Below are positions 3,575-49,414 of a stretch of 64,000 bases of DNA, one piece after another. Position 1 is the stretch's first letter. Each line of letters begins with the position of its first letter. Origin of the DNA: Calothrix sp. PCC 7103 (GTDB lineage: Bacteria > Cyanobacteriota > Cyanobacteriia > Cyanobacteriales > Nostocaceae); assembly GCF_000331305.1 (NCBI RefSeq), contig NZ_KB217473.1, forward strand, positions 1 to 64,000, written 5' to 3'. Position numbers and translations under genes: made by a program. The notes under the pieces were generated by a model. It did not search any database. It was not told the origin of the DNA and saw only the letters and a program-made list of their open reading frames with translations.

Positions 3575-3656
3575 AATTTCCGATTGTTAAACTAAAGGGC
3601 TTATTAGTTAAGGGTGCCCTTTTGTGATTAATTAATAATTATTGATTGATAGGTGT

Positions 3657-4968: not shown

Positions 4969-5070
4969 AAAGTTTGACTCTGCGAAGCAGTGGCATAACT
5001 TTCCCTTACCGTTCCATAAGCGAAGCATCTTGGATTGACGAGAGGGGAATTTTTGGCAAGATTTACCCAC

Positions 5071-6096: not shown

Positions 6097-6248
6097 AATT
6101 CGATACATAAACCACGAAGCATCTTGTAGAGAATTCAAAACTCGCGTCATTGTCGCCAGAATTATCTGGAAGCCATAATTGTAGATTTGTGAGAGGTTAA
6201 CACTTTACTTTGTCTCCAATTTTGTGTTTCTAAATCGAGGTCAGCGCA

Positions 6249-6376
6249 AACCTCGCCAAAACCCGCCACTCAACTGCTACAATACAGGCAAAGAAGGTGG
6301 CGACATTAGGCGAGGTTTGTCGCACTTTGGCGACCCTTTCGAGTTTTGACGATATTAGGCGACATTAGGCGAGGTT
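6249..6376. promoter_or_regulatory. cluster of GGCGAGGTT operator-like boxes upstream of the HTH gene
   Basis: A 19-bp sequence, GGCGACATTAGGCGAGGTT, occurs exactly twice, at 6299-6317 and 6358-6376, ending three bases before the ATG at 6380. An inverted half copy (AACCTCGCCA) lies at 6249-6258 and a related TTTGGCGACC at about 6327. The inverted form recurs just after the gene at 6943-6952. Multiple direct and inverted copies around a two-HTH gene suggest autoregulation, with the last box overlapping the ribosome binding region. Confidence 0.6.
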
Positions 6377-6379
6377 ACT

Positions 6380-17228: not shown

Positions 17229-17273
17229 AGTTTACATTTTTATCAAACTAATTAATTATTAAATATAAAATAT

Positions 17274-17912
17274 ATGTCAGAAATGCCAAGCAACAAAGAA
17301 AACAGCATCGAACTTAAACACGTAAAACTCCCTCCAGTCCTCAAGGATATTAAATCAGAAGTAGTTTTAACAGAAGCTCAGTTACAGGAATTAGAAAATA
17401 AAGCCACATTTAAATTAAAACCTGATTTAAGAGAGTTTCTAAAATATTATAGCGGGGTTTACTTTCAACGTCGCATGAACAAACATCTTCCTTATCTTGA
17501 TTTTGTTATCCCCAATAGGCATGGAATGAAGATTATTAGAGGCGGGTTAGCTGGTGTCAATAAAATAGATGAAAGTGGTGATTTTCATCTAGGCTTGTTT
17601 GACTATGATTTAGCAGGCACAAGAAAACCTATATTAACTTTTGGTTCGCACGCTGCCTTACACTATCTCTTCGTCTCTGAAAGTGGAGATATTTGGTACG
17701 CCTATGTCCGAGAATTTGATGAAGACGGTAAAAAGTACATAAAAGTGGCTAATTCTTTCAATGACTTTTTAACCATCCTTCAAATTCGTAAAGACTTTAT
17801 TGATAGTTTCCTTAAAGAATATCCAGAGCGACAAGCTGATATTCAATGGATGATTGATGAAGAGAATGGGATTTTTAATGATGAGGAGGAAGATGAGGAT
17901 GAAGATTACTAG
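17274..17912 (+). CDS. SUKH (SMI1/KNR4) family immunity protein, copy 1
   Basis: 212 residues. The SUKH features are visible: a short helix with LKPDLREFLKYYSG, a central beta sheet segment (FGSHAALHYLFVSESGDIWY), and a C-terminal SFNDFLTIL helix followed by an acidic tail. Members of this family bind and neutralise the nuclease of the adjacent toxin gene, here the WHH nuclease 45 bp upstream. The N-terminal half is nearly identical to that of the next gene, and the C-terminal half diverges, so the two are recent duplicates. Expression is likely from the toxin promoter. Confidence 0.85.
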   Translation: MSEMPSNKENSIELKHVKLPPVLKDIKSEVVLTEAQLQELENKATFKLKPDLREFLKYYSGVYFQRRMNKHLPYLDFVIPNRHGMKIIRGGLAGVNKIDESGDFHLGLFDYDLAGTRKPILTFGSHAALHYLFVSESGDIWYAYVREFDEDGKKYIKVANSFNDFLTILQIRKDFIDSFLKEYPERQADIQWMIDEENGIFNDEEEDEDEDY

Positions 17913-17939
17913 TTTGCATTTTCACTCAAATATAAATTT

Positions 17940-18575
17940 ATGTCAGAAATGCCAATCAATAAAGAAAACAGCATCGAGCTTAAACATGTAAAACTGCCTC
18001 CAGTGCTTAAAGATATTAAGTCAGAAGTAGTTTTAACTGAGCAACAGCTTCAAGAATTAGAGAAAATAGCCACATTTAAATTAAAACCTGATTTAAGAGA
18101 GTTTCTAAAATATTATAGCGGGGTTTATTTTCAACGTCGCATGAACAAACATCTTCCTTATCTTGATTTTGTTATCCCCAATAGGCATGGAATGAAGATT
18201 ATTCGAGGTGGATTAGCGGGTATTGGAGAAATAGAAAAAAAGGATGATGGATTTTGGCTAGATACTACAAACAACTTAGATGGTAGTAAAAAACCTCCTA
18301 TGTTTAAATTTGCATCTCATGCAGGTTTATACTATATTTACGTTTCACCAGATGGAGCCATTTTCTATGCTTATTCCTGGGAATATGACAGAGACAACCA
18401 AAAGTTTATAAAAGTAGCCGACACGTTCAATGACTTTCTTGGTATCCTTCAAACTCAAAAAAACTTTATTGATAGCTTCCTCAAGGAATACCCAGGACGA
18501 CAGGCAGATATTCAATGGAAAATTGATGAAGAGAATGGGATTTTTGATGATGAGGAGGAAGATGAGGATTACTAA
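17940..18575 (+). CDS. SUKH (SMI1/KNR4) family immunity protein, copy 2
   Basis: 211 residues, a paralogue of the preceding gene. Identity is very high in residues 1-98 and falls in the middle sheet region (for example FKFASHAGLYYIYVSPDGAI), which contacts the toxin in this family. The divergence suggests specificity for a different toxin tip, either one that was displaced from this locus or one carried by competitors. The start codon is preceded by the same leader as copy 1 (AATATAAA-type sequence). Confidence 0.84.
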   Translation: MSEMPINKENSIELKHVKLPPVLKDIKSEVVLTEQQLQELEKIATFKLKPDLREFLKYYSGVYFQRRMNKHLPYLDFVIPNRHGMKIIRGGLAGIGEIEKKDDGFWLDTTNNLDGSKKPPMFKFASHAGLYYIYVSPDGAIFYAYSWEYDRDNQKFIKVADTFNDFLGILQTQKNFIDSFLKEYPGRQADIQWKIDEENGIFDDEEEDEDY

Positions 18576-33423: not shown

Positions 33424-33807
33424 ATGATTAACGAATCTACAATAAAACTTAAAATTTCTCTGACTGACCCTGAATTAGATGAGGAAGAATTAGATGAACT
33501 GACGCGGTATGTGCTGAGGGATATAAAAGACTTGGTGGAAGATGCCAGCATGGCTGAAGATGAAGAAACTTTAGACGGCGTACACAGAGGCGGGCTTGCA
33601 ACAACCCTTTTGGGAGTGCTTAACGCAGAGGTTAGTATTGCAAACTTGAAAAAGTTTCTAGGATTTTTAGGCGAGAGGCTTGGCAATAAACCAATCAAAA
33701 TATCTGGTAAAAAACCTGACGGGACAGAATTTAGTCTTGAAGCAAGCAGCCGAGAGGAGCTTCAACAAGCGGCACAAGAGTTAATAGATTTGATGAAAAA
33801 AATATAA
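33424..33807 (+). CDS. EACC1 family conflict-system component
   Basis: About 127 residues. The early ISLTDPELDEEELDELTRYV segment, the middle block HRGGLATTLLGVLNAEVSIA and the C-terminal KISGKKPDGTEFSLEASSRE followed by a helix match effector-associated constant component 1 (EACC1), a small partner of caspases and other effectors in NTP-dependent conflict systems of multicellular bacteria. The caspase gene follows by about 250 bp on the same strand, the expected pairing. Start: the ATG at 33424 is preferred over a TTG at 33391. Confidence 0.8.
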   Translation: MINESTIKLKISLTDPELDEEELDELTRYVLRDIKDLVEDASMAEDEETLDGVHRGGLATTLLGVLNAEVSIANLKKFLGFLGERLGNKPIKISGKKPDGTEFSLEASSREELQQAAQELIDLMKKI

Positions 33808-34055
33808 AACTAGTGTACCAGTAATCTGACTTTTGGCAGTAATTGGAAAACTTCCTCTGAGTTTGCCCGAACTTTTCTTTCACAGCCTTTCTCATTAACT
33901 AGAGGCTGTTGAGAATCGCTTGCGACAAAAACCATTCACAGGATTTAGGCAGAGCTTGAAAAATCAGTTCTAAGAATTGGTATTGCTTAGGCATTACCGC
34001 AATTTAGCTGTTATTCAGATGATGAAACAACTCAAGACAACGGCAGGAACTAAAC

Positions 34056-36974
34056 ATGACTATAGATAAATTTGCACTATTGATTGGCGTCAGTGAGTAC
34101 GAGTCTTCAAAATTAAGCGAACTTCCAGCCGTTGAAGAGGACGTAGAGAAAATGGAGAGAGTTCTACTAAATCCTGAAATGTGTGGATTTAAGCAAGAAA
34201 ATCTGCAACGCCTGATAAATCCCGACATGGAAACCATGCGAAGAGCTATTAGTTGGCTTTTTAATCTGCGTAAAAAAGATGATTTGGTATTACTCTATCT
34301 GGCTTGTCACGGGATACATCACAGAGACAGTGGGCGCCTGTACTTCGCAGCCAGCACAACTAGAGAAGATGACTTGATAGCAACCGGAGTGGAGGCTAGG
34401 TATGTACATGATGTCATGGCTGATAGCCGTTCAAGGCGTCAGGTAATTATTCTTGACTGTTGTTATAGTGGCGCTTTCTCCAACGGTATGTTAGCCAGAA
34501 GCCCGGAAGATATTAATGTCAAAGTTGATATTCAACAACACCTTGGCGGAGAAGGAAGGGCAGTTCTGACTTCTTCAACCTCTTTGCAGCCCACACTTGA
34601 CGGGGTTTACACTACGTACCTTGTTCAAGGCATAGAAACGGGAGCGGCTGATGAAGATGGCAATGGTCGCATTTCCATACGTGAGTTACATAACTACACC
34701 AAAAATCAAGTTCAGATATACGCTCCAAGCATGGAGCCAGAAATTTACACCACCAAAGAAGGCTATGAAATTATATTTTCGCAAGCTCCAATAGGCGACC
34801 CAAGGCTGGAATATCGCAAAAAGCTTAATGAGTTAGTACATATTACAAACGGCGAAATCTCAGACCGTGTACGCAGAACTTTAGACCAATTTAAAAGAAG
34901 ACTAGGTTTAACAGACGAGGAGGCTAAGAATATTGAGGATAGTTTTTTTGAGCCTTTTAGACAACGCCAAGACAATTTAAACAGCTATGAGGAAGAGTTT
35001 AGGCAGGCGGTTCAAAATCAGTATCCCCTGAGTGATTCAGATTGCAAGTTAATTAAAATGTTTCAACAGTCTTTAGGACTGAGAGATGAAGATGTTCAAG
35101 CGATTGAAGAGAGAATAGTCGGGCAGTATACACAAAATTTACAGAATTATGAACAAAATTTCCGTCAATTGCTCCAAAATGGACACCCGTTACATAAAAT
35201 TCGCCACGAGCAATTACAACAAGCATCAGCATTAAGAGAAGAGAAATTACATGAAATAGAGCATCGAGTACTTGAGGAGCGTCAACAACAACAGCGGCAG
35301 TATGAACAGGCTTTGCGCCAAGCAATACAGCGTGGATTTATAATTTTTAATCTATTTAAATCCAGTCCAAATTTGCGAGACATCGCTCCATCATCAATTT
35401 TGAGCGATAATGATATACAAACAATCTATAATCATCTAAAAAGACAATTTTTAAGCAGATATTTACCTATAGCCATACTACCTGCTCTTGCTTTAGGCAT
35501 TTTTTTAGGTTTAAATTCTGATAAAATAGATCAGCCACAACCAAACCCAACTCCATCAAACCCAAAACAACAATCTAATTCAGATGTCGGTAGTAAAATA
35601 AGTTTGGGAGAAAAAAGTTTATTTCCAGATGAGTTTTACTTTAACGAAGAAAATGAGAAAAGAATAAAAAAAGCAGGCATCGATAAATTCAAATCAACTC
35701 AAATCAAAGCAGTTCAAAATAAAAGAGATTATGAACAAGCATCAGAAATTTTTAAAGATTACTTAGATAAATTCCGCAACGATGCCGAGGCACTAATCTT
35801 TAAGAATAACGCAATGGCTCTCGCACAAGGCAATCCACTTAAAATCGCTGTAAGCGTCCCCATTAGTGCTAGCTTAAATGTTGCAATGGAAATTTTAAGA
35901 GGTGTGGCTCAGGCTCAGGAAGAGTTTAATTCCAATACTTCTGGCAAAAAGTTGTTAGTAATAATTGGAGATGACGGTAACGATAAGACAGTGGCAGGAA
36001 TTACTGCTAAAGAGTTTTTGAAACACGATATTTTAGCAGTAATCGGCAGCAATAATATTAATGCATCAATGGGGGCAGCAGAAGCTTATCAGTTAGAAAA
36101 TCAACGTATTGTCATGATTTCCCCTACTGCATTTGGTGAAGGTCTTGGGAATTTTACTAATGCGAAGCAAATGATAGGGTCGAATTACATCAAGAAAGTT
36201 GCAACAGTTTTAGGTAATGAAATAGAAACATTACAAACACCGTCTGGGAAAATCAATCTACTGATTTGCAGTCATGAAGGTTCGCAGGATAATAATAAGT
36301 TTATTAGCGAATTTGAGAAAATTAACTTTCAACGTATTAAGATTAATAAAAAGTGTAGTCTTAATGATGCAAATCTAAATATAAGTAACATTCTTGAGAG
36401 TGCTGTCAATAAACCTAATGCTATATTGCTTGCTCCCCATATAAACGAAGAAGAGTTTCAAAAAGCAATAGAAGTAGCAACGCAGGTAGCACAAGCCAAT
36501 CAAAATTTACCTCCAAACGAACGCCTTAAATTGTTTGGCTCGCCTACGATGAATGCTGCCTATATTGGTAAACAAGGGGCAGAGGCACATAGAGCTTTTG
36601 GCGGAATGAAGGTAGCTGTACCTTGGAATCCATATAATGGAGAAGGGCAAAAATTTCTTAATTATGCTAACTGCCGCCTTTGGAAAGGTCATGTAAACTG
36701 GCGTACTGCGATGGCATATACTGCTACTAAGGCAATTACCACAATTTTGAAGTCTAATCCAAATCCAAGCGAAGATACAATATTGAATGAAATTACAAAA
36801 CCAGAATTTAATTTTAACGGTGCAACTGGAAATGTTAATTTCTCACAAAATCAAGAATTTCCGGTAAGTATAGTTGAGTTTGAATACAAACAGGGAAACT
36901 CTGGATTTACACCAAGAGAAATATGCAGAGAACAAAATACAACCTTAAAGCGTAGTGAATCTCCATTTGGTTAG
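34056..36974 (+). CDS. caspase-like protease fused to TM segment and periplasmic-binding-protein domain (EACC1-associated)
   Basis: 972 residues. Residues 1-235 form a caspase/metacaspase-like peptidase: the catalytic His is in LACHGIHH (H85) and the Cys in LDCCYSGAF (C136). About 250-430 is a set of three to four helical repeats (for example YEEEFRQAVQNQYPLSDSDC, with LGL-x-x-E-x-x-x-IE). A single membrane segment follows (about 469-488, AILPALALGIFLGL), then a type 1 periplasmic-binding fold of the amino-acid ABC family (about 594-960, from LKIAVSVPISASLN). The predicted topology is protease inside and ligand-binding domain outside, i.e. a receptor that could trigger suicidal proteolysis. 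EACC1 is encoded immediately upstream. Confidence 0.86.
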   Translation: MTIDKFALLIGVSEYESSKLSELPAVEEDVEKMERVLLNPEMCGFKQENLQRLINPDMETMRRAISWLFNLRKKDDLVLLYLACHGIHHRDSGRLYFAASTTREDDLIATGVEARYVHDVMADSRSRRQVIILDCCYSGAFSNGMLARSPEDINVKVDIQQHLGGEGRAVLTSSTSLQPTLDGVYTTYLVQGIETGAADEDGNGRISIRELHNYTKNQVQIYAPSMEPEIYTTKEGYEIIFSQAPIGDPRLEYRKKLNELVHITNGEISDRVRRTLDQFKRRLGLTDEEAKNIEDSFFEPFRQRQDNLNSYEEEFRQAVQNQYPLSDSDCKLIKMFQQSLGLRDEDVQAIEERIVGQYTQNLQNYEQNFRQLLQNGHPLHKIRHEQLQQASALREEKLHEIEHRVLEERQQQQRQYEQALRQAIQRGFIIFNLFKSSPNLRDIAPSSILSDNDIQTIYNHLKRQFLSRYLPIAILPALALGIFLGLNSDKIDQPQPNPTPSNPKQQSNSDVGSKISLGEKSLFPDEFYFNEENEKRIKKAGIDKFKSTQIKAVQNKRDYEQASEIFKDYLDKFRNDAEALIFKNNAMALAQGNPLKIAVSVPISASLNVAMEILRGVAQAQEEFNSNTSGKKLLVIIGDDGNDKTVAGITAKEFLKHDILAVIGSNNINASMGAAEAYQLENQRIVMISPTAFGEGLGNFTNAKQMIGSNYIKKVATVLGNEIETLQTPSGKINLLICSHEGSQDNNKFISEFEKINFQRIKINKKCSLNDANLNISNILESAVNKPNAILLAPHINEEEFQKAIEVATQVAQANQNLPPNERLKLFGSPTMNAAYIGKQGAEAHRAFGGMKVAVPWNPYNGEGQKFLNYANCRLWKGHVNWRTAMAYTATKAITTILKSNPNPSEDTILNEITKPEFNFNGATGNVNFSQNQEFPVSIVEFEYKQGNSGFTPREICREQNTTLKRSESPFG

Positions 36975-37938: not shown

Positions 37939-38520
37939 ATGCTTAATCCAGTTCTGCCCTTAGAGCAGTTAGCACTTATATTCCAAGGAATCACCCTCAG
38001 TCGTTACCAAGACGAGGAGGGTTCGCAAGAACAGGTCGTTAATGCTCGCAACCTTGAGCATCTATATATAGAGGATGAGTTGAGTGTTGTTAAACTTAAA
38101 GCATCTAATCTTGCTCAGTACCGATTATGCCCTTGTGATGTAGTTGTCACTATTCGAGGGACTTCTTTAAAAGCATCGGTGGTGACGCAAGAAATTGCAG
38201 GAAGCTTACCTGGTCAAAACTTAGCCGTTTTACGTCTATCTACGGATATTGATCCCTTATATTTAGCTGTGGTGATGCGTTCCAAATGGCTTGAGCAGCA
38301 ACTTGCTAGGTTGTACAGTCAGTCTAGTGCAACTCAGTTGCTAAGAATCTCTCAATTGCGTGACCTGAAGATACCTTTACCTGATTTAGACACGCAAAGA
38401 AAACTGGCTCAGTTATTTATGGCAACTGAGCGTTATACCCGAAGTACCCTAGAGGTAGTGGTAATGAGGAATAATTTAACCGAATTTGCTCTGTCTCAAA
38501 TTTTAGAAGGAAGGCAATGA
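37939..38520 (+). CDS. single-TRD HsdS-like specificity subunit
   Basis: 193 residues, about half the size of a normal HsdS. It contains one target recognition domain with the typical end motif RISQLRDLKIPLPDLDTQRK and a conserved region helix. Such half-subunits dimerise to give a palindromic recognition site, or partner with another half. Its stop overlaps the start of the HsdM-like gene (ATGA at 38517), so the two products form one complex. No HsdR follows. It lies right of the caspase module. Confidence 0.82.
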   Translation: MLNPVLPLEQLALIFQGITLSRYQDEEGSQEQVVNARNLEHLYIEDELSVVKLKASNLAQYRLCPCDVVVTIRGTSLKASVVTQEIAGSLPGQNLAVLRLSTDIDPLYLAVVMRSKWLEQQLARLYSQSSATQLLRISQLRDLKIPLPDLDTQRKLAQLFMATERYTRSTLEVVVMRNNLTEFALSQILEGRQ

Positions 38521-39992
38521 TTACTTTACAATATTTGGAAGAACGTTTTTGGACTATCACTGACATTTTACGTGATGAATTGCTCCTAAATCAGTCTATT
38601 GATTATTTGCTTCGACTTCTACTTTTCAAACGCTTATGCGATGTTTTTGAAGAAGAAAAAACTTCTATCGAGAAGAGGACAGGTAATCATGACCTAATAT
38701 ATTCTGTACAAAGCTCACACCAATTTTTTATCCCTGAATACGCACTCTGGAAAAACTTACATACTTATCCAAATATTGGGAAAGCACTCGATATAGTTAC
38801 TAGAGAGGTTGAAGCTCATAATCCAATACTTCAAGGAATTTTTACTAGCATTGACTTTAATCGTTTTGATGACAGTGGTAGATTACTAAATCTGGTTGCT
38901 GAGTTTTCTCATCTTAATTTACAAAATAGTAACCTTGCTGAACCAGGCTTATTAGGCAGAGCTTATGATTCGATTATTGAGAAGTTTTCTACTAAAGCTG
39001 GAAAAGCGAGCGAAACTTTTTTTATCCCACAAAACGTCACAGAATTATTAGTTCGCTTACTTGATATACAACAAGAAATGAGTATTTGTGACCCTACTTG
39101 CGGAACAGGTAGTTTCTTAGTAGCGTGTGCAAATTACATCAAAAATGAGATAGGAGGATTAAATAATGTGCTTCTCTACGGAGAGGAAAAAAGCAATCAT
39201 AATTTGGTCATTGCCAAAATAAACCTTTTATTACACGACATCTTTGATTTTGATATTCGGCAGGGAAATATTATTCGTGACCCTCAACTAGTCAAAGATA
39301 ACAAGTTAATGCGGTTTGACCGAGTTATAGCCAGTCCACCATTTAACCTCAGTTGGAGTTATGAAAATGCCGACTTTAATTATTACTCACGGTTCCGCTA
39401 TGGAATACCACCTAAAAATAATGCCAACTTTATTTTTATTCAGCATATATTAGCTGCGTTAAAAGAGGATGGGAAAGCTGGAGTTATTGTTCCACTTGGA
39501 GTTTTATTCCGTAGTGGGAAAGAAGGTTTAATCCGTAAAAGAATAGTCGAAGATGATTTAATTGAAGCAGTTATTGGTCTCCCAGCTAATCTATTGATAG
39601 GGACAACCCTACCTATCGCTATTTTGATTCTTACTCACAATAAGGTTGAAAAACGTAAAAATAAAATTTTGTTTATTGATGCTACTAATCAATACCAAAA
39701 AATCCGTAATCAAAATTATTTACCTTCAGATGCCATAAACCGCATTATTACTGTTTATCAAAGTTTTTCTAATAAAGAAGGTTATGCAAGGGTTGTTACT
39801 CTTAAAGAGTTGGCTGAAAATGACTATATGCTTAATATTAATCGATACGTTTTACCATCCAATTTGGAAGATGAGGAGATTAATATTGACACAAAACTCA
39901 TTAAGTTGCGTGAATTAGAAACTAAACGTACTCTTGCTGAGAATGATATGAACAAATATTTACGTGAACTAGGGGTAAATATTGAAGTCTGA
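38517..39992 (+). CDS. HsdM-like N6-adenine DNA methyltransferase
   Basis: 491 residues, the N-6 methylase domain of type I systems. The SAM motif DPTCGTGSFLVA is at about 192-203. Motif IV is SPPF (273-276), where Asn/Asp of NPPF/DPPF is replaced by Ser; this Asn is normally essential for adenine methylation, so activity may be reduced or changed. The N-terminal helical region (LLRLLLFKRLCDVFEEE) is normal for HsdM. It is translationally coupled to the upstream half-HsdS. Without HsdR next to it, it could be a modification-only or regulatory unit, or borrow the HsdR at 41.4 kb. Confidence 0.85.
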   Translation: MITLQYLEERFWTITDILRDELLLNQSIDYLLRLLLFKRLCDVFEEEKTSIEKRTGNHDLIYSVQSSHQFFIPEYALWKNLHTYPNIGKALDIVTREVEAHNPILQGIFTSIDFNRFDDSGRLLNLVAEFSHLNLQNSNLAEPGLLGRAYDSIIEKFSTKAGKASETFFIPQNVTELLVRLLDIQQEMSICDPTCGTGSFLVACANYIKNEIGGLNNVLLYGEEKSNHNLVIAKINLLLHDIFDFDIRQGNIIRDPQLVKDNKLMRFDRVIASPPFNLSWSYENADFNYYSRFRYGIPPKNNANFIFIQHILAALKEDGKAGVIVPLGVLFRSGKEGLIRKRIVEDDLIEAVIGLPANLLIGTTLPIAILILTHNKVEKRKNKILFIDATNQYQKIRNQNYLPSDAINRIITVYQSFSNKEGYARVVTLKELAENDYMLNINRYVLPSNLEDEEINIDTKLIKLRELETKRTLAENDMNKYLRELGVNIEV

Positions 39993-40224
39993 GTTTAAAT
40001 TGCAAAATTTTATCATGAAAGTTTAACAATATTACTCAATCGTAAGTATAGTTGCCACAACCGATTAATAGGTAAGATTTTTTTCTGCTCAGAAAATATA
40101 CTTAAATGTGGCTGGTTACATTTAATTTCAAACAAAATAAAGGGTCAAAGCCAAAAAATGCCTCAACCCGTTCGTTCATGTATTTAATTGTTTAAACACT
40201 TACAGAGTGAAGCCAGCCATATTC

Positions 40225-40455
40225 TTAACTCCCCTCACTGGCGCCGTCATTATCACTATCGCCACCATTCTCACCAGAGCCGTCCCCATCACCACTGTTT
40301 TCACGAGCCGAATCATCGGAGTTATTGTAATCCAGCCCATCGCCTTGATAATCTTTATCGGCTCCGTCCGCTTGAGCGTCCCTTTCAGCTAAGGAACGGT
40401 TATCGCTGGTGCTGGAAGTAGATACGTTATCAAGCCAATCCCAATTTAATGTCAT
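40225..40455 (-). CDS. small acidic Asp/Ser/Gly-rich protein, 76 aa
   Basis: 76 residues, starting MTLNWDWLDNVSTSSTSDNR and ending in a very acidic, low-complexity Gly/Asp/Asn/Ser stretch. A GAGG-type ribosome binding site lies 8 bases before the ATG, which makes it more credible than the overlapping frames. Unrecognised. It may be a nucleic-acid mimic (acidic anti-restriction-like protein) or a peptide precursor; both are speculation. Confidence 0.4.
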   Translation of the reverse strand: MTLNWDWLDNVSTSSTSDNRSLAERDAQADGADKDYQGDGLDYNNSDDSARENSGDGDGSGENGGDSDNDGASEGS

Positions 40456-40999
40456 TGTTTTTACCTCATTTACAACAATCTAATGAAGGTTTGACATCTT
40501 CTCTCATACCGCCGCCAGAAAGTTTTCGCTCACTACTGGCGCCTGTTTAAGAGAAGATGCGCTTAAGCTTCGCGTTGCCAGTCCGAACAGGGCACTAATT
40601 AAAGCAACCCCTTTAACTGGCAATACAGAAGCATAGCGGTTCCACCCAAGAGAAAGCACCTAGCCGTTAGGGTAGGTGTAGAGCGCGATACGGCAAAGTT
40701 TGAAAGTTAGTTGATTGTCCCTAGAAGCCAAGCTGTGATTAACCTTTGCTAGAGGATAATCACTTCTGACTCAGATATGTTAACTTTGCTTGTATCCGAT
40801 TTGTTTGTGCTGGCTTGCGCCAACAGCTTTAATATAACACTCTTGATGAGCAAAATTAACATATTTGCTCATCACAAAAACTTATGCTGCAAATAAATTG
40901 TCATCATTTGCATTAGCAAAGTTCACATACTTGCCTTTGGTCAGAGAAAAAGCACCATGTAAATCGGAGGAGAAGTCAATATATATAATTTTTATATAA
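40456..40999. other. 540-bp region with nested hairpin at 40495-40559
   Basis: No gene found. A nested structure has outer arms CATCTTCTCT (40495-40504) and AGAGAAGATG (40550-40559) and an inner CGCCAG / CTGGCG pair (about 40513-40541). A second short hairpin, CACCTA / TAGGTG, lies near 40659-40680. AT-rich sequence with two TATATA boxes 11 bp apart (40982 and 40993) precedes the RHH gene. Confidence 0.5.
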
Positions 41000-41212
41000 A
41001 TGCAGGATAAAAAACGGCGTACCACCAGTATCACCATTGACGGTCGCATACTAGATAAAATTAAACTGATTGCCGACGGTAGAGGCATTACCGTCAGTCG
41101 GTATATTGAAGAGCATTTTTTTAATGAGTTTAAGCGTACTGGGATTATTCCACCCGATATGGAACCGTTCAAGGAAACGAGGGGAGGAGATCGAACCAAG
41201 CCCAGTGAGTGA
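41000..41212 (+). CDS. ribbon-helix-helix regulator, 70 aa
   Basis: 70 residues with an RHH (MetJ/Arc/CopG-like) core: strand RTTSITIDGRILDKIKLIAD followed by a second helix (GITVSRYIEEHFFNEF). RHH proteins bind short repeated operators as dimers. Two TATATA boxes, 11 bp apart, lie immediately before the ATG, like those of the par locus, and repeated TAACCAGT boxes lie downstream before hsdR. It is therefore a candidate autoregulator and possibly a regulator of the restriction operon. Confidence 0.72.
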   Translation: MQDKKRRTTSITIDGRILDKIKLIADGRGITVSRYIEEHFFNEFKRTGIIPPDMEPFKETRGGDRTKPSE

Positions 41213-41345
41213 AATAAATTGTGTGCATCGAAGTTTAAATTGCCCATTGAGAGCTACGCACCAATGAAGATAATCAAGCTTAACCTAATAAAACACGTAA
41301 CTCAGACCCTAAAAAGTAGCCAGTGGTAATGACTTACAGGAATTT

Positions 41346-41384
41346 ACTGGTTAAGTTATAAATGTAACCAGTATAGTAACCAGT
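41346..41384. promoter_or_regulatory. TAACCAGT operator-like repeats before hsdR
   Basis: TAACCAGT occurs at 41365-41372 and 41377-41384 (12-bp step) and inverted as ACTGGTTA at 41346-41353. The last copy ends directly before the hsdR ATG at 41386, so binding would block translation or transcription of the restriction operon. Confidence 0.55.
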
Positions 41385-41385
41385 C

Positions 41386-43761
41386 ATGAGTAATGAAGCC
41401 AATACCTGCCGCAAGTACGTCGAACCAAAACTGAAAGATGCTGGGTGGGAGCAGGAGCCACACAACTATGAGGAGCAATATTATTTTACTGATGGTAAAA
41501 TCCGCCCCAAGGACAAACTTAGACCCCGTGCTAAACGCAATTTTGCCGATTACCTGCTACTTTACAACGGCACTTACCCTCTAGCGGTTGTTGAAGCCAA
41601 GCGCAACTATAAGACGGCGGATGAAGGATTGGAACAAGCCATAAAATACGCTCAAACTCTAGACGTTAAATTCGCTTACTCAACCAACGGTAAGGGGATT
41701 GTTGAATACGACTTTACCACAGGTCAACAATCCGATGAATTGGAGTCTTTTCCTACTCCTAGCCAATTGTGGCAGCGCTTAACTGGAGAAGGTGCGGAAC
41801 AAATCCGACCGGACATTGCCGAGAAATTACTGACCCCATTTTATCTGCTACCAGGTAGGCAACTGCGTTACTACCAGCGCAACGCCATCAACGCTGTTAT
41901 TACCGCTACTCTTAAAAATCAAAGCCGCTTGCTTTTAACAATGGCTACTGGAACAGGTAAAACCACAACCGCTTTTCAAATTTGCTGGAAACTGTCTCAA
42001 TTGGAGTGGAACAAGTCGGGGGAAAATCGCCCACCTAGAATACTATTTTTAGCCGACCGCAACATCTTAGTTGATGACCCGATGAATAAGGAATTTTCAG
42101 CTTTCAATGGAGAGAAAATCTATAAGATACAAGGAGAAGCAAAGAAGGGACGGGACATTTACTTTGCCATTTATCATGCCATCGCTGAGGATAAAGCTCG
42201 CCCTGGATTGTATAAAGAATACAACCCTGATTATTTCGACTTAATTATAGTTGATGAGTGCCATCGTGGAAGTGCTAATGATGAGGGTAACTGGCGCCAG
42301 ATTTTAGAGTATTTTAAGTCCGCTTACCAACTGGGTCTAACTGCCACGCCTCTGCGAGATGACAACAAAGATACTTACCGCTACTTTGGCAACCCTCTTT
42401 ACACTTATTCACTTAAACAAGGGATTGAAGACGGGTTTTTGGCTCCCTACCGAGTTTACCGTGTAACCACCCGTTCGGACAGAGATGGTTGGCGAGCTAA
42501 TAATGGAGAAGTGGATCGTTACGGTCGGGAAATACCCAGTGAAATGTATCAAACTCCCGATTTTGAACGCAAGCTGGTGCGAAAGGCTCGAACTAAAGCC
42601 ATAGCCCAGCACATCACTGATTTTCTTAAAAGTACTGACCGCCAAGCTAAAACCATTGTGTTTTGCGTGGACGACGAACACGTCAAGGCAATGGTTAAGG
42701 AGTTGCGTAATCTCAACACCGATATCACCAAAGATAACCCCAACTATATTTCCCGTATCACCTCCAATGCTGGGGATACAGGCAAGGGGGATTTATACAA
42801 ATTTAAAGATGTTTTGAATCAGACCCACATAATTGCCGTGACGGCAAGATTATTGACCACTGGGGTGGATGTCCCAACCTGTAAAAATATAGTCTTGGCT
42901 CGTGTGATTCGCTCCATGACGGATTTTAAACAGATTATTGGCAGGGGAACCCGTGTGCGAGAAGAACAAGGAAAATTATCTTTTAGTATCGTGGACTACA
43001 CTAAAAGTACGGTCTTGTTTCAGGACAAAGATTTTGACGGAACGCCAGCTTTAATTAACGAGTCGGAAATGGATGATACTGGACGCATTATTGAGCAGCA
43101 TGAGCAAGATTTAGAGACTGAGGAAACAGAAGAGTACGAGGATAAAAAGGCAGGTTTCTGGGGCGTACCCCAAGAAGAGAACACCCTGCCTCGTAAATAT
43201 TACGTAGATGGAGGGACGGAAGAAATAGTTGAAGAAAAGATTTACGATTTAGATGCTAACAATGATTTAACTTTATCTCAAATTATTGAGCGCACAAAAC
43301 AGCAGGTTCGCACTCTCTACCGTTCCACCTTAGAGGTGCAGCAACGCTGGATTAACCCTGAAGGTAGGAAAGAAATTATTGAATTACTAACCGAGAAAAA
43401 TATTGATTTTGAGGACTTAAAAAAACTTAGCAATCAACCAGATGCTGACCCCTTTGACCTGTTATGTCACATTGCCTTTGATGCCCCAGTGCTAACCTGT
43501 AAGCAACGAGCCGAGCGGTTAAAAAGCCACAAACCTGATTTTTTTGAGCAGTACGGAGAAGATGCCAGGGCAATACTGGGAATTATTTTAGACAAGTATG
43601 CCCAGAAGGGTGTGGGAGAGTTTAATATTCCTACAACTTTCAAGGCAAACCGTGAGTTTGATAAGTATGGTAATGTAGTTGAAATTGCTCAACTTTTTGG
43701 TGGCACTCAAAAACTTAAAGATGCCGTCCTAGAGCTGCAAAACTTACTATACTCGGCGTAA
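41386..43761 (+). CDS. hsdR: type I restriction endonuclease subunit R
   Basis: 791 residues, EcoEI-like HsdR. The N-terminal nuclease domain has AVVEAKRNYKTADEGLEQA (PD-(D/E)XK active site Glu/Lys). The translocase follows: Walker A ATGTGKTT (about 187-194), DECH box at about 290-293 and motif VI IIGRGTRVREE. The C-terminal part binds the methylase complex. It cuts unmodified DNA after ATP-driven translocation. HsdM follows by 8 bp and HsdS thereafter, giving a full operon. The size is normal for the EcoEI group. Confidence 0.93.
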   Translation: MSNEANTCRKYVEPKLKDAGWEQEPHNYEEQYYFTDGKIRPKDKLRPRAKRNFADYLLLYNGTYPLAVVEAKRNYKTADEGLEQAIKYAQTLDVKFAYSTNGKGIVEYDFTTGQQSDELESFPTPSQLWQRLTGEGAEQIRPDIAEKLLTPFYLLPGRQLRYYQRNAINAVITATLKNQSRLLLTMATGTGKTTTAFQICWKLSQLEWNKSGENRPPRILFLADRNILVDDPMNKEFSAFNGEKIYKIQGEAKKGRDIYFAIYHAIAEDKARPGLYKEYNPDYFDLIIVDECHRGSANDEGNWRQILEYFKSAYQLGLTATPLRDDNKDTYRYFGNPLYTYSLKQGIEDGFLAPYRVYRVTTRSDRDGWRANNGEVDRYGREIPSEMYQTPDFERKLVRKARTKAIAQHITDFLKSTDRQAKTIVFCVDDEHVKAMVKELRNLNTDITKDNPNYISRITSNAGDTGKGDLYKFKDVLNQTHIIAVTARLLTTGVDVPTCKNIVLARVIRSMTDFKQIIGRGTRVREEQGKLSFSIVDYTKSTVLFQDKDFDGTPALINESEMDDTGRIIEQHEQDLETEETEEYEDKKAGFWGVPQEENTLPRKYYVDGGTEEIVEEKIYDLDANNDLTLSQIIERTKQQVRTLYRSTLEVQQRWINPEGRKEIIELLTEKNIDFEDLKKLSNQPDADPFDLLCHIAFDAPVLTCKQRAERLKSHKPDFFEQYGEDARAILGIILDKYAQKGVGEFNIPTTFKANREFDKYGNVVEIAQLFGGTQKLKDAVLELQNLLYSA

Positions 43762-43769
43762 CTGGACGA

Positions 43770-45557
43770 ATGGCAAAGCGCAGCAAAGAAGATGCTAAAC
43801 CCGTGAATACGGCTCAAAAACTGAGCAGTATCATCAAGTCTTCACGGGACATTATGCGAAAGGATAAAGGTCTAAACGGAGAGTTAGACCGCCTGCCGCA
43901 ATTAACCTGGATTTTGTTTCTAAAACTATTAGACGATTCAGAGAAGCTGCACGAAGTTGAAGCCGAACTTGAGGAAATGGCGTATAAATCCACTATTCAA
44001 GCACCCTATCGTTGGCGAGATTGGGCTGCTAACGAAAATTTTACTGGAGATCGTTTAAAAAATTTCATTAACAACGATGAAGCGACGCTACCTAACGGCG
44101 AAAAGGGCTTAGGTTTACTAGCTTACTTGCGAAACCTGAAAACTAAAACAGGCAATAAACGAGCCGATGTCATTGCCAAAGTATTTAAAGATGTCTCTAA
44201 CCGCATGACTAGCGGAACGTTGCTGTACGATATTTTAGCTAAAGTCAGCGACCTTCACTTCGATAAATCTGAAGAAGTTAATATTCTCAGCACCCTCTAT
44301 GAGTCCATGCTCAAAGAAATGCGCGATGCGGCTGGGGATTCGGGAGAGTTTTACACTCCCCGTCCAGTAGTGCGCTTTATGGTGCAGGCAATGGAGCCGA
44401 AACTAGGGGAAAGCATACTCGACCCAGCCTGTGGAACCGCAGGGTTTCTAGTAGAAACTTATGAGTATTTAAAAAAACAATCTAACTCTAAAAACTGGCA
44501 GATTTTACAACAAAGTATTTTTGGTGCCGAACCCAAATCTCTGCCTCTCATGTTAGCACATATGAATTTGCTGCTACACGGGTTTGAATACCCAGATATC
44601 GATGACGGTAACAGCCTGCGTTTTACCCTTAGCGAGATGGGGGAGAAGGATTGGGTGGATGTAATTTTAACTAATCCACCGTTTGGAGGGGAGGAGGAAG
44701 ATAGAATTCAGAAAAACTTTCCTCCTGATAGAAAAACTAAAGAAACGGCTCTGTTGTTTTTACAGTTAATTACGCGGCGCCTTAAACGAAAGCCCACCCC
44801 AGGACGAGCAGCAGTAGTCTTTCCTAATGGGCTACTATTTGGAGATGGGATTTGTGCCAAGCTAAAGGAAGATTTGCTCAAAGATTTCAATTTACATACA
44901 ATTGTGCGACTGCCAAACGGAGTTTTTGCACCCTACACCACTATCCCTACCAATTTACTGTTTTTTGACCATTCAAAGCAAACGGACGAGATTTGGTACT
45001 ACGAATTACCTTTACCAGAAGGACGCAAAACTTACACTAAAACTAAGCCCATACAAGATGAAGATTTTGCTCAGTGTCTAGGTTGGTTGAAAGATAGAGA
45101 GGAGAATGAACAGGCGTGGAAATATAATTTTAGAGAAGCTTATATTAAGGCGATAGAAGAGGCAACGCCTCATTGGGAAGCAGCCAAAAAAGCAGAAGAA
45201 GCCGCTAATCAATATGCTAAAACCGCTAAAGAACTAATTGATAAGATTAATTACAAGAGCAAGTTTAGCGAATTACCTTTATTACAAAAAACAGAAGATA
45301 AAAACAAAATTCAGGAATTAAAAGACACACTAATTGCTGTTCAAAAAGAGGAATTGGAACAGCGGGAAATTGCTAGGAATGAGCAAAGTAGAGGAGATGC
45401 TATTTACTGGGCAATTTACAACCTTGACCGCAAGAATCCAAACGGTCAGCAAAACCTTGAACATTTACCTCCCGAAAAATTAGTTGCCAGTATTTTGAAC
45501 AAAGATAGGCAAATAGCAGAAATTATGAAGGAGATTAAGAGTATTTTAGGAAGTTAA
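43770..45557 (+). CDS. hsdM: type I restriction-modification methyltransferase subunit M
   Basis: 595 residues. SAM-binding DPACGTAGFLVETYEYL is at about 218-234 and the catalytic NPPF at about 302-305 (LTNPPFGGEEED). An N-terminal four-helix region and a C-terminal coiled coil that contacts HsdS are visible. It methylates adenine in the host sequence and is also the structural core of the restriction complex. It lies between hsdR and hsdS, and unlike the copy at 38.5 kb, motif IV is intact. Confidence 0.93.
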   Translation: MAKRSKEDAKPVNTAQKLSSIIKSSRDIMRKDKGLNGELDRLPQLTWILFLKLLDDSEKLHEVEAELEEMAYKSTIQAPYRWRDWAANENFTGDRLKNFINNDEATLPNGEKGLGLLAYLRNLKTKTGNKRADVIAKVFKDVSNRMTSGTLLYDILAKVSDLHFDKSEEVNILSTLYESMLKEMRDAAGDSGEFYTPRPVVRFMVQAMEPKLGESILDPACGTAGFLVETYEYLKKQSNSKNWQILQQSIFGAEPKSLPLMLAHMNLLLHGFEYPDIDDGNSLRFTLSEMGEKDWVDVILTNPPFGGEEEDRIQKNFPPDRKTKETALLFLQLITRRLKRKPTPGRAAVVFPNGLLFGDGICAKLKEDLLKDFNLHTIVRLPNGVFAPYTTIPTNLLFFDHSKQTDEIWYYELPLPEGRKTYTKTKPIQDEDFAQCLGWLKDREENEQAWKYNFREAYIKAIEEATPHWEAAKKAEEAANQYAKTAKELIDKINYKSKFSELPLLQKTEDKNKIQELKDTLIAVQKEELEQREIARNEQSRGDAIYWAIYNLDRKNPNGQQNLEHLPPEKLVASILNKDRQIAEIMKEIKSILGS

Positions 45558-45590
45558 TATTGTATTGTTTGAAAAGGTTTTTTAAAACTA

Positions 45591-46772
45591 ATGAATAGAA
45601 GTTATCCATTATCAACTTTGAGTAAGGTTATTAGCTATAGAAAAGAATTTATAGAAATAGACGATTCTCAAACATATAAGAGATGTCGTGTAAAACTTCA
45701 CGCTCAAGGGGTTGTTCTAAGAGATATTGTTAAAGGTATTGAAATTAAAACAAAGAAACAACAGTTTTGTAGGGAAGGAGAATTTTTAGTTGCTGAAATA
45801 GATGCAAAAGTAGGAGGATTTGGTATTGTACATGAAAATTTAGATAAAGCAATCGTTAGCAGTCATTATTTTTTATTTGACATTAATGAGTCACTGCTAG
45901 ATAAACGTTTTTTGGATTTTTATATTCGCACTCCTGCATTCCGCAACCAAGTTTCCCCTCAAGGCTCTACTAATTACGCTGCAATACGTCCAAATGATGT
46001 ACTAAAATATATAATTCCTTTGCCGCCACTTGAGGAGCAACAACGAATTGTAGTGCGAATTGAGGAACTAGCAGATAAGATAGAGCAGGTGAGATTGCTT
46101 CGTCGGAAAGCAGTAGAGGAAACAGAAAGTTTAATAACTTCGGCTTTAAACTCCGTTTTTGAAAAAAATATTAATCAGAAAGGGTGGGAGCTTAAACCTT
46201 TGAGACAAGCAGCAGAAGTGGCAAGAGGTAAATTTACACATCGTCCTCGTAATGAGCCGAGATTTTATGGCGGAAACATACCCTTTATTCAAATAGGTGA
46301 TATATCCAACTCTAATCTCTATATTAAACAATACTCGCAAACCCTTAATCAAGATGGATTACGTATTAGTAGAATGTTTCCTAAAGGTAGTATCGTCATA
46401 GCTATAACAGGTGCCACTATAGGTGTTACTGGAATTCTCACCTTTAATTCTTGTTTTCCAGATAGTATCGTAGGTATTATTCCTAATCAAAATATTGTTA
46501 CTTCAGAGTTTATCTATTGGTCTTTAGAGTATGTTAAAAAAATTGCCCTTGCAGAAGCTACTCAAACCACTCAGCCTAATATAAATCTTCAAATTTTAGA
46601 TAAGCTAAATATTCCAATCCCACCCATAATTGAACAATATTGTATTGTTACTTACCTTGATAATTTACAAACCAAAGTGGATACAATGAAACAACTCAGA
46701 GAAGAGACGATAAAAGAACTTGATGCTTTACTACCATCAATCTTGGACAAAGCTTTCAGAGGTGAATTATAG
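45591..46772 (+). CDS. hsdS: type I restriction specificity subunit S, two TRDs
   Basis: 393 residues with the usual two target recognition domains. The first half (about 1-150) ends at IIPLPPLEEQQRIVVRIEEL and is followed by a coiled-coil spacer. The second TRD (about 205-345) contains IPFIQIGDISNSNLYIKQ and ends with LNIPIPPIIEQ and a second coil. It gives the bipartite DNA sequence specificity. 33 bp separate it from hsdM. The two TRDs determine the target and are prone to exchange between systems. Confidence 0.92.
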   Translation: MNRSYPLSTLSKVISYRKEFIEIDDSQTYKRCRVKLHAQGVVLRDIVKGIEIKTKKQQFCREGEFLVAEIDAKVGGFGIVHENLDKAIVSSHYFLFDINESLLDKRFLDFYIRTPAFRNQVSPQGSTNYAAIRPNDVLKYIIPLPPLEEQQRIVVRIEELADKIEQVRLLRRKAVEETESLITSALNSVFEKNINQKGWELKPLRQAAEVARGKFTHRPRNEPRFYGGNIPFIQIGDISNSNLYIKQYSQTLNQDGLRISRMFPKGSIVIAITGATIGVTGILTFNSCFPDSIVGIIPNQNIVTSEFIYWSLEYVKKIALAEATQTTQPNINLQILDKLNIPIPPIIEQYCIVTYLDNLQTKVDTMKQLREETIKELDALLPSILDKAFRGEL

Positions 46773-47120
46773 GAAGTGGGTAAATACCTAGACTGCATGG
46801 TGCTACGGTGCTACCTCCTGTCTTTGACCTACCGATAGGGAGTGTCGGCAATAGGTTATCAATGTAATAAGATCAATTTTGAACAGCACTTAACCAATAT
46901 TTTAAAAATTTATACACAAAGCGGAAGTATTCTGGTCGGGTCAGATTATACTTTTTCAGTATTAATCAGTTTAAAAAGTTACACAATATAACTTCTTGTC
47001 TACTGATAAGGCGAAATTAAATAATATCTTTAGATTTCACTGGTATTTTAGCACTAGTGTAAACTGTCCCAATATGTTATCTTGCCAACTTATACCTACT
47101 TGAGGAAAGTATAGTTGGCT
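46773..47120. other. 350-bp intergenic region upstream of CBASS operon
   Basis: Contains no gene. A short tandem GTGCTAC is seen at about 46799-46813. A TGAGGAAAG ribosome-binding-like sequence lies before the CBASS start. The promoter cannot be pinned down by eye. Confidence 0.4.
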
Positions 47121-48032
47121 ATGGCATTCAAAATTTTAGCAATTGATGGAGGAGGTATCCGAGGTTTATACGCGGCATACATCTTAAAGAGAATACACGA
47201 GGAGCTAAAGATAGGTTTTTCTGAGTATTTTGACTTAATTATTGGCACCAGCACAGGTTCAATAATTGCTGGGGCACTGGCTGTAGATTATCCCATTGAA
47301 AAGGTGGTTCTGCTTTATGAGGTGGAAGGCAGGAAGATTTTTACCCCAACTGCTTTGAATTTCAAAGGTTTTTACAAAAGTAAATATTCAAAAAAACATC
47401 TGGAGAGTGTTCTCAACAAAGCACTTGGGAATAAAACTCTTTCCGAAGTCACTAAAACTCGATTGGTTATACCAGCTACAGACATTGCCAATGGACAAGT
47501 TTTTGTCTTTAAGTCTTCCTATCTGGAGGAATTTGTAAGGGATAAAAATACAAAAATCGTTGATGCCATTATCTCCTCATGCTCCGCACCAACTTATTTT
47601 GAACCGAACAGAGCTGGCAATTACTTACTGGCAGACGGCGGACTGTGGGCAAATAATCCAGCTATGGTTGGACTGACCGAAGCTATTGGAAAGCTAAAAA
47701 TCAATAAAGATGAAGTCAGAATGCTTTCAATTGGCACAGGCATAGGGCATCAATACTACGAAATTGACGGCGCCGAGAACAAAAATTGGGGCTTAGTCAG
47801 TGGCTGGCAGGGAAGTAAGCTGGTGGACACCATTCTGAATTTACAATCTGTGTCTTGCGAAAACATGATCAAGTTAATGCTGAGTGAAAGTCAGTATTTA
47901 AGATTGAACTTTAGCAGCGACACTAAACTGGCTTTAGATAATTTAGAAACCATCGAATCGCTCAAAAGTCGAGCCGACCATACAGTAACTTACGAAATCA
48001 ATAAAATTAAAAGTTTTTTCTCTGAAAATTAA
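47121..48032 (+). CDS. capV: CBASS effector, patatin-like phospholipase (CapV type)
   Basis: 303 residues. The oxyanion loop is AIDGGGIRGLYA (about 7-18), the nucleophile elbow GTSTG (42-46) and the catalytic Asp in LADGGLWANNP (D172). The enzyme degrades membrane phospholipids once activated by the cyclic nucleotide made by its neighbour, killing the infected cell before phage release. The CD-NTase gene follows by 35 bp. A TTG two codons upstream could also initiate, but the ATG with GAGGAAAG upstream is preferred. Confidence 0.92.
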   Translation: MAFKILAIDGGGIRGLYAAYILKRIHEELKIGFSEYFDLIIGTSTGSIIAGALAVDYPIEKVVLLYEVEGRKIFTPTALNFKGFYKSKYSKKHLESVLNKALGNKTLSEVTKTRLVIPATDIANGQVFVFKSSYLEEFVRDKNTKIVDAIISSCSAPTYFEPNRAGNYLLADGGLWANNPAMVGLTEAIGKLKINKDEVRMLSIGTGIGHQYYEIDGAENKNWGLVSGWQGSKLVDTILNLQSVSCENMIKLMLSESQYLRLNFSSDTKLALDNLETIESLKSRADHTVTYEINKIKSFFSEN

Positions 48033-48067
48033 TTTTTTAATCATACAAACAATATTCCTAGCAGACT

Positions 48068-49414
48068 ATGAAAACGATAGCCACTTTTTTTAACGACTTT
48101 CTAAAAGACGAAGTAAATTTAAACCCAACTAGGCTCAAAGTAGCTAAAAAGGGCATAAAAACTATGGAAAAGTTCTTAAAGAACAACGAGTTGTTTAAAG
48201 ACCATATTATTGACATTACTCCGCAAGGGTCTTACAAGCAGGGAACAATAAACAAGCCATCTGGTGAAGCAGATTTTGATGTGGATTTATTAGTCCTGCT
48301 AAAAGAATTTCCGGGCTGGGAGCCGAAAGATTATTTACATAAACTCCATCAGGAATTTGAGAATACCGGAAGGTACAAAGATATTGCAGACAGGAAGGGT
48401 AAATCCAGATGCGTCACCATCGACTACGCTAGTGATTTTCATATTGACTTAGTGCCTGCTATTAAAAAAAACGGCGGATACAAAATTATGAATAAAAACA
48501 GCAATCAATTTGAAGATACCGATGGAGAGGGGTACGCCAATTGGTTTATAGTTAAAAATGAGATTACAACCAATAAGTTTCTCACCAAAACAGTTAGGTT
48601 AGTAAAGTATTTGAGAGACTACAAGAAAACTTTTTCCATTAAATCTGTTGTATTAACAAGTTTACTAGGAAAGCAAGTTTACGAACTTGATAAATATAAT
48701 CAAAATGAATACTACAAAGATTTACCAACTACACTAAAAACTTTATTCAATAGATTGAATGATTATTTGCAAAGCCTACCTGACCTGACGGATGAAATTA
48801 TTACCAATCCTGTTCTGCCAACCGAAAAATATAGTCGGCACTGGAATCAGGACAATTACTCAACTTTTAGACAGAAAGTTTATGACTATAATATTTGGAT
48901 TAACGAAGCTTACGCAGAAAGTGACGTTAACAAGGCAGTAAAAAAGTGGCAGCGATTATTTGGAGACGAATTTGGAGAAATCCAAGAAACAACTGCTAAA
49001 TTTAGTGATTCTAATAGAGATTTAGTAGGTTCAATAGTACAGAAAGAAGACTTTATATTTGGTTCATGCACTGAAAATTTAGACAATAATTACAAACTGA
49101 TTCTTTCTGTTTATCCTCGTCAGTCTAACGGTTTTCGCTCTCAGCATTATAAGAAAGATGAAAAATTGTTTTTCTCGATCAATAAGAGTCAAAGTTCATT
49201 ACCATCTGGTGTCACTTTCAAGTGGAAAGTGAAGAATAGTGGACTTGAAGCCAAGTTAGCTAATCAGTTAAGAGGAAACATAGAAGATGATATTGACAGC
49301 AAGGGAGAAAAGACAGAAACCACCGCTTACAAAGGGAAACACTATGTTGATTGCTATGCACTTTTAGGAAATACAGTAGTAGCCACTGACACTGTTAATG
49401 TCATTGTGGTTTAA
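48068..49414 (+). CDS. CBASS CD-NTase, cGAS/DncV-like cyclic oligonucleotide synthase with C-terminal AGS-C-like domain
   Basis: 448 residues. The nucleotidyltransferase core has TPQGSYKQGT (about 51-60), the metal-binding D-x-D in ADFDVDLL (D71, D73) and a third carboxylate in HIDLVPA. The C-terminal 110 residues (from about FIFGSCTENLDNNYKLI) match the AGS-C type sensor region found in some of these enzymes. It makes a cyclic di- or trinucleotide upon phage infection, and the adjacent patatin responds. Two genes and no accessory genes: a type I CBASS. Confidence 0.9.
   Translation: MKTIATFFNDFLKDEVNLNPTRLKVAKKGIKTMEKFLKNNELFKDHIIDITPQGSYKQGTINKPSGEADFDVDLLVLLKEFPGWEPKDYLHKLHQEFENTGRYKDIADRKGKSRCVTIDYASDFHIDLVPAIKKNGGYKIMNKNSNQFEDTDGEGYANWFIVKNEITTNKFLTKTVRLVKYLRDYKKTFSIKSVVLTSLLGKQVYELDKYNQNEYYKDLPTTLKTLFNRLNDYLQSLPDLTDEIITNPVLPTEKYSRHWNQDNYSTFRQKVYDYNIWINEAYAESDVNKAVKKWQRLFGDEFGEIQETTAKFSDSNRDLVGSIVQKEDFIFGSCTENLDNNYKLILSVYPRQSNGFRSQHYKKDEKLFFSINKSQSSLPSGVTFKWKVKNSGLEAKLANQLRGNIEDDIDSKGEKTETTAYKGKHYVDCYALLGNTVVATDTVNVIVV

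Follow-up and report, generated by a model that had tools for sequence, protein, structure and literature searches.

The window analysed here comprises the first 64,000 nucleotides of an 88,063-bp contig (NZ_KB217473.1; C2 in our labelling) from the 11.6-Mb genome of Calothrix sp. PCC 7103 and contains a small EACC1-like gene followed by a gene for a 972-amino-acid caspase chain that is built like a receptor. From its N-terminus, this chain runs through a caspase domain and a repeat region to a single membrane segment, behind which a TPR-like unit and a periplasmic binding protein (PBP) domain follow. The locus is real and well formed, and the coordinates given for its two plus-strand open reading frames (ORFs) in an earlier annotation made from the DNA alone (the original prediction) were found to be correct (Table 1); for the small ORF, a longer mechanical version begins at 33391 instead of 33424. 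That annotation did not mention the TPR-like unit, an EF-hand-like loop, the intergenic gap or the loss of a GHxxS motif. The parts of the chain, their order, the intact catalytic dyad, the PBP fold and the kin described below rest on sequence or model. We interpret the chain as a single-pass receptor-protease whose outer domain triggers the caspase, with death or arrest of the cell as likely outcome, and consider the chances of this interpretation to be about even. For comparison, 47 relative loci (labelled L and a number, with genomes labelled G) were found in genome contigs, and the profiles for EACC1 and caspase were built from relatives retrieved with the window's own proteins. A search of viral contigs yielded just two relatives, both caspase-only.

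The N-terminal part of the chain was matched by Pfam Peptidase_C14 (4.4e-16) and passed the NCBIfam model caspase_w_EACC1 (NF047832) with 156.8 bits at a cut-off of 140. In a sequence alignment of 66 EACC1-type caspases, including that of the window, His85 and Cys136 occupy the dyad columns, which contain H and C, respectively, in 64 rows each, in agreement with the predicted caspase with intact His and Cys. With a C14 domain and a His-Cys dyad, the chain has the features of an orthocaspase (bacterial C14), a type of enzyme for which cleavage C-terminal to positively charged residues is described in the covered part of the literature (PMC6426788). The EF-hand-like loop inside the caspase domain follows the strict pattern in 53 of the 66 caspases, with D199 kept in 65 and E210 in 64 of them, and scores 13 bits with the Pfam EF-hand model in the window; it may bind Ca2+ and may point to Ca2+ control. 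When the caspase and repeats were compared as a single-sequence query with the sequences of the PDB, no match at E ≤ 0.01 was obtained. From the PADLOC models, one generic caspase model (33.1 bits) matched the chain and none matched the EACC1 gene.

The C-terminal part scored 33.1 bits with Pfam Peripla_BP_6 (cut-off 31.7) and 21.2 bits with ANF_receptor, which is under the cut-off of 25.4. An AlphaFold model of the ectodomain based on 39 sequences (predicted local distance difference test, pLDDT, 87.1; predicted template modeling score, pTM, 0.88) comprises a TPR-like helical unit and then the full two-lobed fold, a complete type I binding domain. Among the best solved matches in a fold search were LivK 3td9 (E 1.9e-14), LivJ 4gnr, the GABA receptor protein 3ip5 and mGlu8, and a sequence-profile search returned 4mlc, 3td9 and LivJ. 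The designation of the domain as amino-acid-type therefore stands with regard to the fold, but not with regard to the ligand: of the two features of HAAT-class type I binding proteins, the two-lobed fold is present, while the GHxxS motif is replaced by GSNNI. The H and the S of this motif were each found in 36 of 39 aligned rows including the window, and the site reads GHNTD in the EAD1 relative introduced below and GHY[TP]S in the chains from Microcystis. The Ser of GHxxS is presumably the ligand contact corresponding to LivJ Ser79. With this motif lost, the assignment of an amino-acid ligand to the window head finds no support. The type I Venus-flytrap fold is shared with LivJ/LivK and with the ectodomains of metabotropic glutamate receptors, from which the window domain differs by lacking GHxxS and by being preceded by a membrane segment and a TPR-like unit. 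The ectodomain alignment (A4), in which the PBP tails are 25–43% identical to that of the window, omits L079 (same as L043), L081, a second L109 copy, L116, L118, a partial L105 frame and the decayed L095; a full-chain alignment (A3) was not used for modelling because its PBP tails were poorly aligned (14–21% identity).

A hydrophobicity scan of the chain gave a single peak, behind repeats that look helical by eye, and no hydrophobic segment N-terminal to the caspase. The receptor-like build that had been proposed is thus backed by the domain order, by the single membrane segment, by the absence of any such segment before the caspase and by many related chains. A segment with a hydrophobicity of at least 1.6 precedes the PBP domain in 35 of 42 PBP chains (near copies included), and in these 35 the N-terminal side is richer in lysine and arginine in 29 cases, equal in three and poorer in three. 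It is likely that the caspase lies inside the cell and the PBP outside. According to the proposed mechanism, in which orientation, signalling direction, ligand control, the role of EACC1 and the outcome are what we infer, the caspase and the repeats would reside in the cytoplasm and the Venus-flytrap domain in the periplasm, where a bound small molecule, partner protein or piece of envelope debris would alter its conformation or its pairing. This signal would be relayed by the TPR-like unit, the membrane helix and the repeats, whereupon caspase domains would be gathered with EACC1 and cutting would be enabled; the cell would likely be killed or arrested by this proteolysis, in the service of immunity or kin protection. 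As a domain in the periplasm would hardly act as an effector in the cytosol, the PBP is more likely to be a trigger than a payload.

The two ends of the chain have different closest kin. Residues 3–353 align to the EACC1-caspase L015 (49%, BLASTP), and residues 321–943 align to a receptor of the same genome encoded at locus L048 (39% over 657 columns, BLASTP), the closest relative found for the C-terminal two thirds. Both matches overlap within the repeat region, which suggests that the window chain is a chimera joined inside the repeats. The L048 receptor is an EAD1-repeat-membrane-PBP chain (EAD1 91.7 bits) whose gene lies beside an EAD1-CHAT gene (Table 1). The same kind of head may therefore be coupled in two ways to a protease of the caspase superfamily, via a shared adaptor in L048 and via fusion in the window, and the L048 pair represents a direct test case for the proposed adaptor principle. 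When the L048 receptor was compared with 148 genomes of the order, with a limited number of candidates per genome and not every other long frame covered, none of the matches listed, apart from its own locus, extended into EAD1.

In related chains, the same kind of membrane-TPR-PBP block is found on other signalling parts. According to Pfam, 29 PBP chains, which were selected as window matches with long frames, so that the counts are not frequencies, carry CHAT (10), Pkinase (7), AAA/STAND with TPR (5), an EACC1-caspase (2, the window and L031), caspase-nSTAND1-WD40 (1, L113), nSTAND1-WD40 (1), EAD1 (1) or no other family (2). In combination with a kinase, the block has the layout of a receptor kinase. 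On pNLP1, a conjugative plasmid of a lichen Nostoc, a 9.2-kb gene annotated as 'caspase family protein' ends in a PBP domain, and on a plasmid of Gloeothece verrucosa a PBP gene overlaps, in a different frame, with a caspase gene whose product looks by eye to contain ATPase-like and membrane parts. EACC1-caspases for their part bear variable C-terminal parts, namely PBP_6 (window), a PstS-like domain (L014), TPR (L015) and an FGE-sulfatase-like part judged by eye (L025). L014 (1480–4299) combines the EACC1-caspase, repeats and a membrane segment with the PstS-like binding domain in place of the type I domain. At L095 of Nostoc sp. NMS7 (4920–6009), caspase and PBP remain as pieces.

In a tree of 39 PBP tails, the window groups with the EAD1 receptor (100/99) in a CHAT-rich region, four Microcystis EACC1-caspase tails group with two kinase chains (100/100), and L113, an additional C14-nSTAND1-WD40 case, is placed elsewhere. 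A single clade of the five EACC1-caspase tails was rejected (approximately unbiased test, p-AU 2e-6). This tree suggests that EACC1-caspases acquired the PBP head at least two times; the long branch of the Microcystis tails (1.42) weakens tree tests of this type. The tree labels 'unk' (L111, L124, both outside the Pfam scan) and 'CHAT-like N' (L126, identical to L006 and matched in Pfam by the PBP family alone) were assigned by hand.

That the architecture itself is novel had to be rejected. In the portions covered, Kaur et al. (2020; eLife 9:e52696, System 4) describe EACC1-caspase pairs as a two-gene conflict system, name the form with a membrane helix and then an extracellular PBP, and list up to 50 variable C-terminal domains. 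Caspases with ANF_receptor or Peripla_BP_6 are likewise on record (PMC3501461, PMC8283722, PMC7475262), with one protein combining a caspase and a binding domain in Cyanothece PCC 7424 and eight entries among 473 putative orthocaspases in the covered part of this literature, and an outside-in activation of membrane orthocaspases has been suggested (PMC7475262). A Nostoc Ser/Thr kinase bearing an ANF_receptor domain was reported in 2005 (PMC1262709); the signalling enzyme that carries this class of binding domain there is a kinase in place of a caspase. The window locus resembles the system of Kaur et al. (2020) in its 5′ EACC1-like gene and in its 3′ gene for an N-terminal EACC1-associated caspase with a variable C-terminal part, here of the membrane-PBP form. 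In contrast to that system, its EACC1 is under the Pfam cut-off and shows no membrane helix by the tests used here, and the C-terminal two thirds of its caspase chain are similar to a receptor of the EAD1 type encoded in its own genome. The cyanobacterial orthocaspases share with it the caspase and the family of the extracellular domain, whereas EACC1, a chimeric origin and a tree of the binding domain are absent from the covered portions of the respective papers. New here are the chimera of EACC1-caspase and EAD1 receptor, a sensor head common to several kinds of chain that has apparently been wired repeatedly to caspase-fold proteases, and the fast ectodomain in Microcystis. A description of one PBP head on CHAT, STAND, EAD1 and caspase proteins was not found beyond the cited kinase and caspase forms in a literature search that had most subscription journals outside its reach.

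The EACC1-caspase-PBP form was detected in seven of 12 Microcystis species genomes, and six of these copies match across the whole chain without a stop. In the seventh, from Microcystis wesenbergii (L086, 4968–7857), the caspase frame is interrupted; this copy was left out of the dyad and rate analyses. The ratio of nonsynonymous to synonymous rates (dN/dS) of the fused chain ranged from 0.48 to 0.88, with 0.47–1.26 for the PBP part and 0.17–1.21 for the caspase (15 pairs), compared with 0 to 0.45 for the EACC1 gene directly upstream (10 pairs), 0 to 0.38 for neighbouring mechanical ORFs (33 comparisons, one without synonymous change) and 0.35 for the PBP part of a Microcystis CHAT-PBP gene. 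For two pooled, non-overlapping pairs, which were picked after seeing the others and toward the high side, the TPR and PBP parts together gave 1.27 (bootstrap 0.85–2.02), the TPR part alone 2.68 (1.07 upward; two synonymous changes) and the caspase 0.79. In one pair, the ectodomain differed from EACC1 and the neighbours with p 2e-13 (rounded counts). Since the bootstrap interval spans 1, diversifying selection and relaxed constraint would both fit these rates, and a firm claim of positive selection on the ectodomain was rejected. The combination of a fast ectodomain, with dN/dS near 1, and a constrained EACC1 was noted for L079, L080, L081, L082, L091 and L136. Between allele types, the repeat block reached synonymous distances (dS) of 0.4–1.1, and their PBP parts 0.03–0.07, which is a sign of exchange at the repeats between alleles.

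A ratio near 1 and one broken copy out of seven would also be expected if the chain were a decaying or idle chimera, in which shuffling joined two halves under weak selection, and the junction within the repeats, the loss of GHxxS and the 248-bp gap, where genes nearly touch in many relatives, fit that explanation as well. We nevertheless regard it as very improbable, because the 972-codon frame is open, the dyad and the EF-like loop are intact, the ectodomain models well and six of the seven Microcystis copies are free of stops. A more far-reaching proposal, which we put forward tentatively and regard as rather doubtful, is that the PBP head and its TPR-like neck together serve cyanobacteria as an extracellular danger receptor of plug-in type, which would have been shuffled at the repeats onto death and signalling modules (EACC1-caspase, at least two times, C14-nSTAND, CHAT, kinase, STAND and the EAD1 adaptor), comparable to animal death receptors; the Microcystis ectodomain would then have been diversified by ligands from phages or competitors, with EACC1 kept constant.

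The product of the small upstream gene scored 17.0 bits with Pfam EACC1 (PF19953), below the cut-off of 23.6. Its EACC1 label, as given in the original prediction, is supported by the position ahead of the caspase and by 18–48% identity to 45 EACC1-like relatives. At E ≤ 0.01, PF19953 matches only seven of these 46 cyanobacterial proteins, the one from the window among them, so that the set represents a divergent branch. Among the genome-contig loci with a strong EACC1-type caspase, an EACC1-like ORF lies upstream in 30 of 42. In many relatives the two genes nearly touch, while gaps of more than 100 bp occur in L014, L021 and L026. That the gap in the window is a repeat element was ruled out, as a DNA search found no further copy in its own genome. 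The model of the EACC1 protein (pLDDT 70.7) has the order strand-helix-strand-strand-helix-strand-strand-helix and no membrane helix; its maximum hydrophobicity over 19 residues is 1.25, and two of the 46 relatives reach 1.6. From this moderate model, EACC1 in cyanobacteria is read as a putative soluble adaptor. A known fold was rejected for it, since Foldseek gave no match at E ≤ 0.001 and the best hit of its profile to PDB sequences was a designed protein (E 0.0035).

Several observations speak against control of the caspase by its outer domain. The window head may bind nothing, its GHxxS being lost, and the charge bias across the window's membrane segment is weak (three K/R versus two). The remaining seven of the 42 PBP chains fall below the hydrophobicity threshold, and L104 and L113 have no clear membrane segment ahead of the PBP domain, so that not every PBP chain need be a membrane receptor. 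Directly before His85 the window reads LAC, a deviation from the FSG found in at least 95% of the 66 rows, and the interrupted Microcystis caspase frame belongs here as well. At 12 of the 42 strong caspase loci the profile identified no EACC1-like ORF upstream (at L089 the DNA ahead of the caspase gene is only some 350 bp long), and an EAD1 receptor next to EAD1-CHAT was seen once, without replication. Finally, the covered portions of Kaur et al. (2020) describe EACC1 as one conserved transmembrane helix and favour it, rather than the PBP, as membrane sensor. If EACC1 is both sensor and trigger, the membrane-PBP part could merely be an anchor or a cargo released by autoproteolysis. It is in line with such a role that EACC1 recurs across relatives while the C-terminal part of the caspase varies (see above), and that EACC1 of Microcystis is tightly constrained and the chain is not. 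We consider this alternative unlikely: a simple hydrophobicity scale and the moderate model, which are not final, gave no membrane helix for the window's EACC1 but a soluble alpha/beta protein, a periplasmic PBP would be an odd cargo, and the same head is also found on kinases and CHAT proteases.

A similarly low probability is assigned to the possibility that the chain is a sensor of nutrients, amino acids or metabolic state that tunes metabolism or development through limited proteolysis and takes no part in death or defence. In favour of this, the fold is the one seen in branched-chain amino acid binding proteins, GHxxS is retained in the Microcystis chains, the occurrence of this head on kinases points to ordinary signalling (PMC1262709, in the part covered), and one CHAT-PBP relative is weakly similar to HetF (27.7 bits, far below cut-off). 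On the other hand, the head in the window is without GHxxS, and the gene is located on a plasmid-like contig with restriction and CBASS-type genes nearby. These genes, which lie at most 16 kb from the caspase pair, are a complete type I restriction system (R, M, S), another type I M gene accompanied by a short S gene, and a CBASS-type pair encoding a patatin and a CD-NTase. The contig also encodes ParA, TrbL/VirB6 and a coupling protein and is therefore probably a conjugative plasmid.

Should the outer domain indeed control the protease, the chain would represent a direct bacterial receptor-to-caspase switch, its ligand would become a tractable question, and it could be asked which outside cue prompts self-proteolysis in colonial or filamentous cyanobacteria. 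The presence of one sensor head on caspase-fold proteases, kinases and STAND proteins offers several natural pairs for comparison.

Table 1. Positions of the features discussed, numbered within the window or, for L048, within that locus.
Feature	Position	Strand	Basis or remark
EACC1-like gene, 127 amino acids	33424..33807	+	ORF list; predicted soluble alpha/beta; usual partner of EACC1-type caspases
Intergenic gap, 248 bp	33808..34055	.	between EACC1-like and caspase genes
Receptor-like caspase gene, 972 amino acids, whole	34056..36974	+	ORF list
Caspase domain, ~residues 1-245, dyad His85 + Cys136	34056..34790	+	Pfam, NCBIfam, alignment
EF-hand-like loop DEDGNGRISIRE, residues 199-210	34650-34685	+	inside caspase domain
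Repeat region, ~residues 246-465	34791..35450	+	EACC1-caspase-like to residue 353, EAD1-receptor-like from 321
Single membrane segment, ~residues 466-488	35451..35519	+	mean hydrophobicity 1.81-1.91 over 19 residues
TPR-like helical unit, ~residues 513-591, family motif ends in NNA	35592..35828	+	conserved columns; model helices
Type I periplasmic-binding (Venus-flytrap) domain, ~residues 594-972	35835..36971	+	Pfam, profile, model, fold search
Diverged motif GSNNI, residues 664-668, at GHxxS site	36045..36059	+	39-row alignment
Short type I S + M, then type I R/M/S, then patatin-like phospholipase + CD-NTase	37939-49414		adjoins caspase gene
L048 EAD1-repeat-membrane-PBP receptor gene	4447-6681	-	20 bp from convergent EAD1-CHAT gene
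L048 EAD1-CHAT gene	1985-4426	+	EAD1 102.8 bits, CHAT 38.1 bits

Elsewhere in the window, the stretch 13983–18575 encodes a 1081-amino-acid protein that ends in a WHH/colicin-type nuclease domain, followed by two near-alike genes for 211–212 amino acids, which may be tandem immunity genes. Furthermore, a 629-amino-acid protein at 22448–24337 matches the defence models PDC-S41, AbiO and Nhi.

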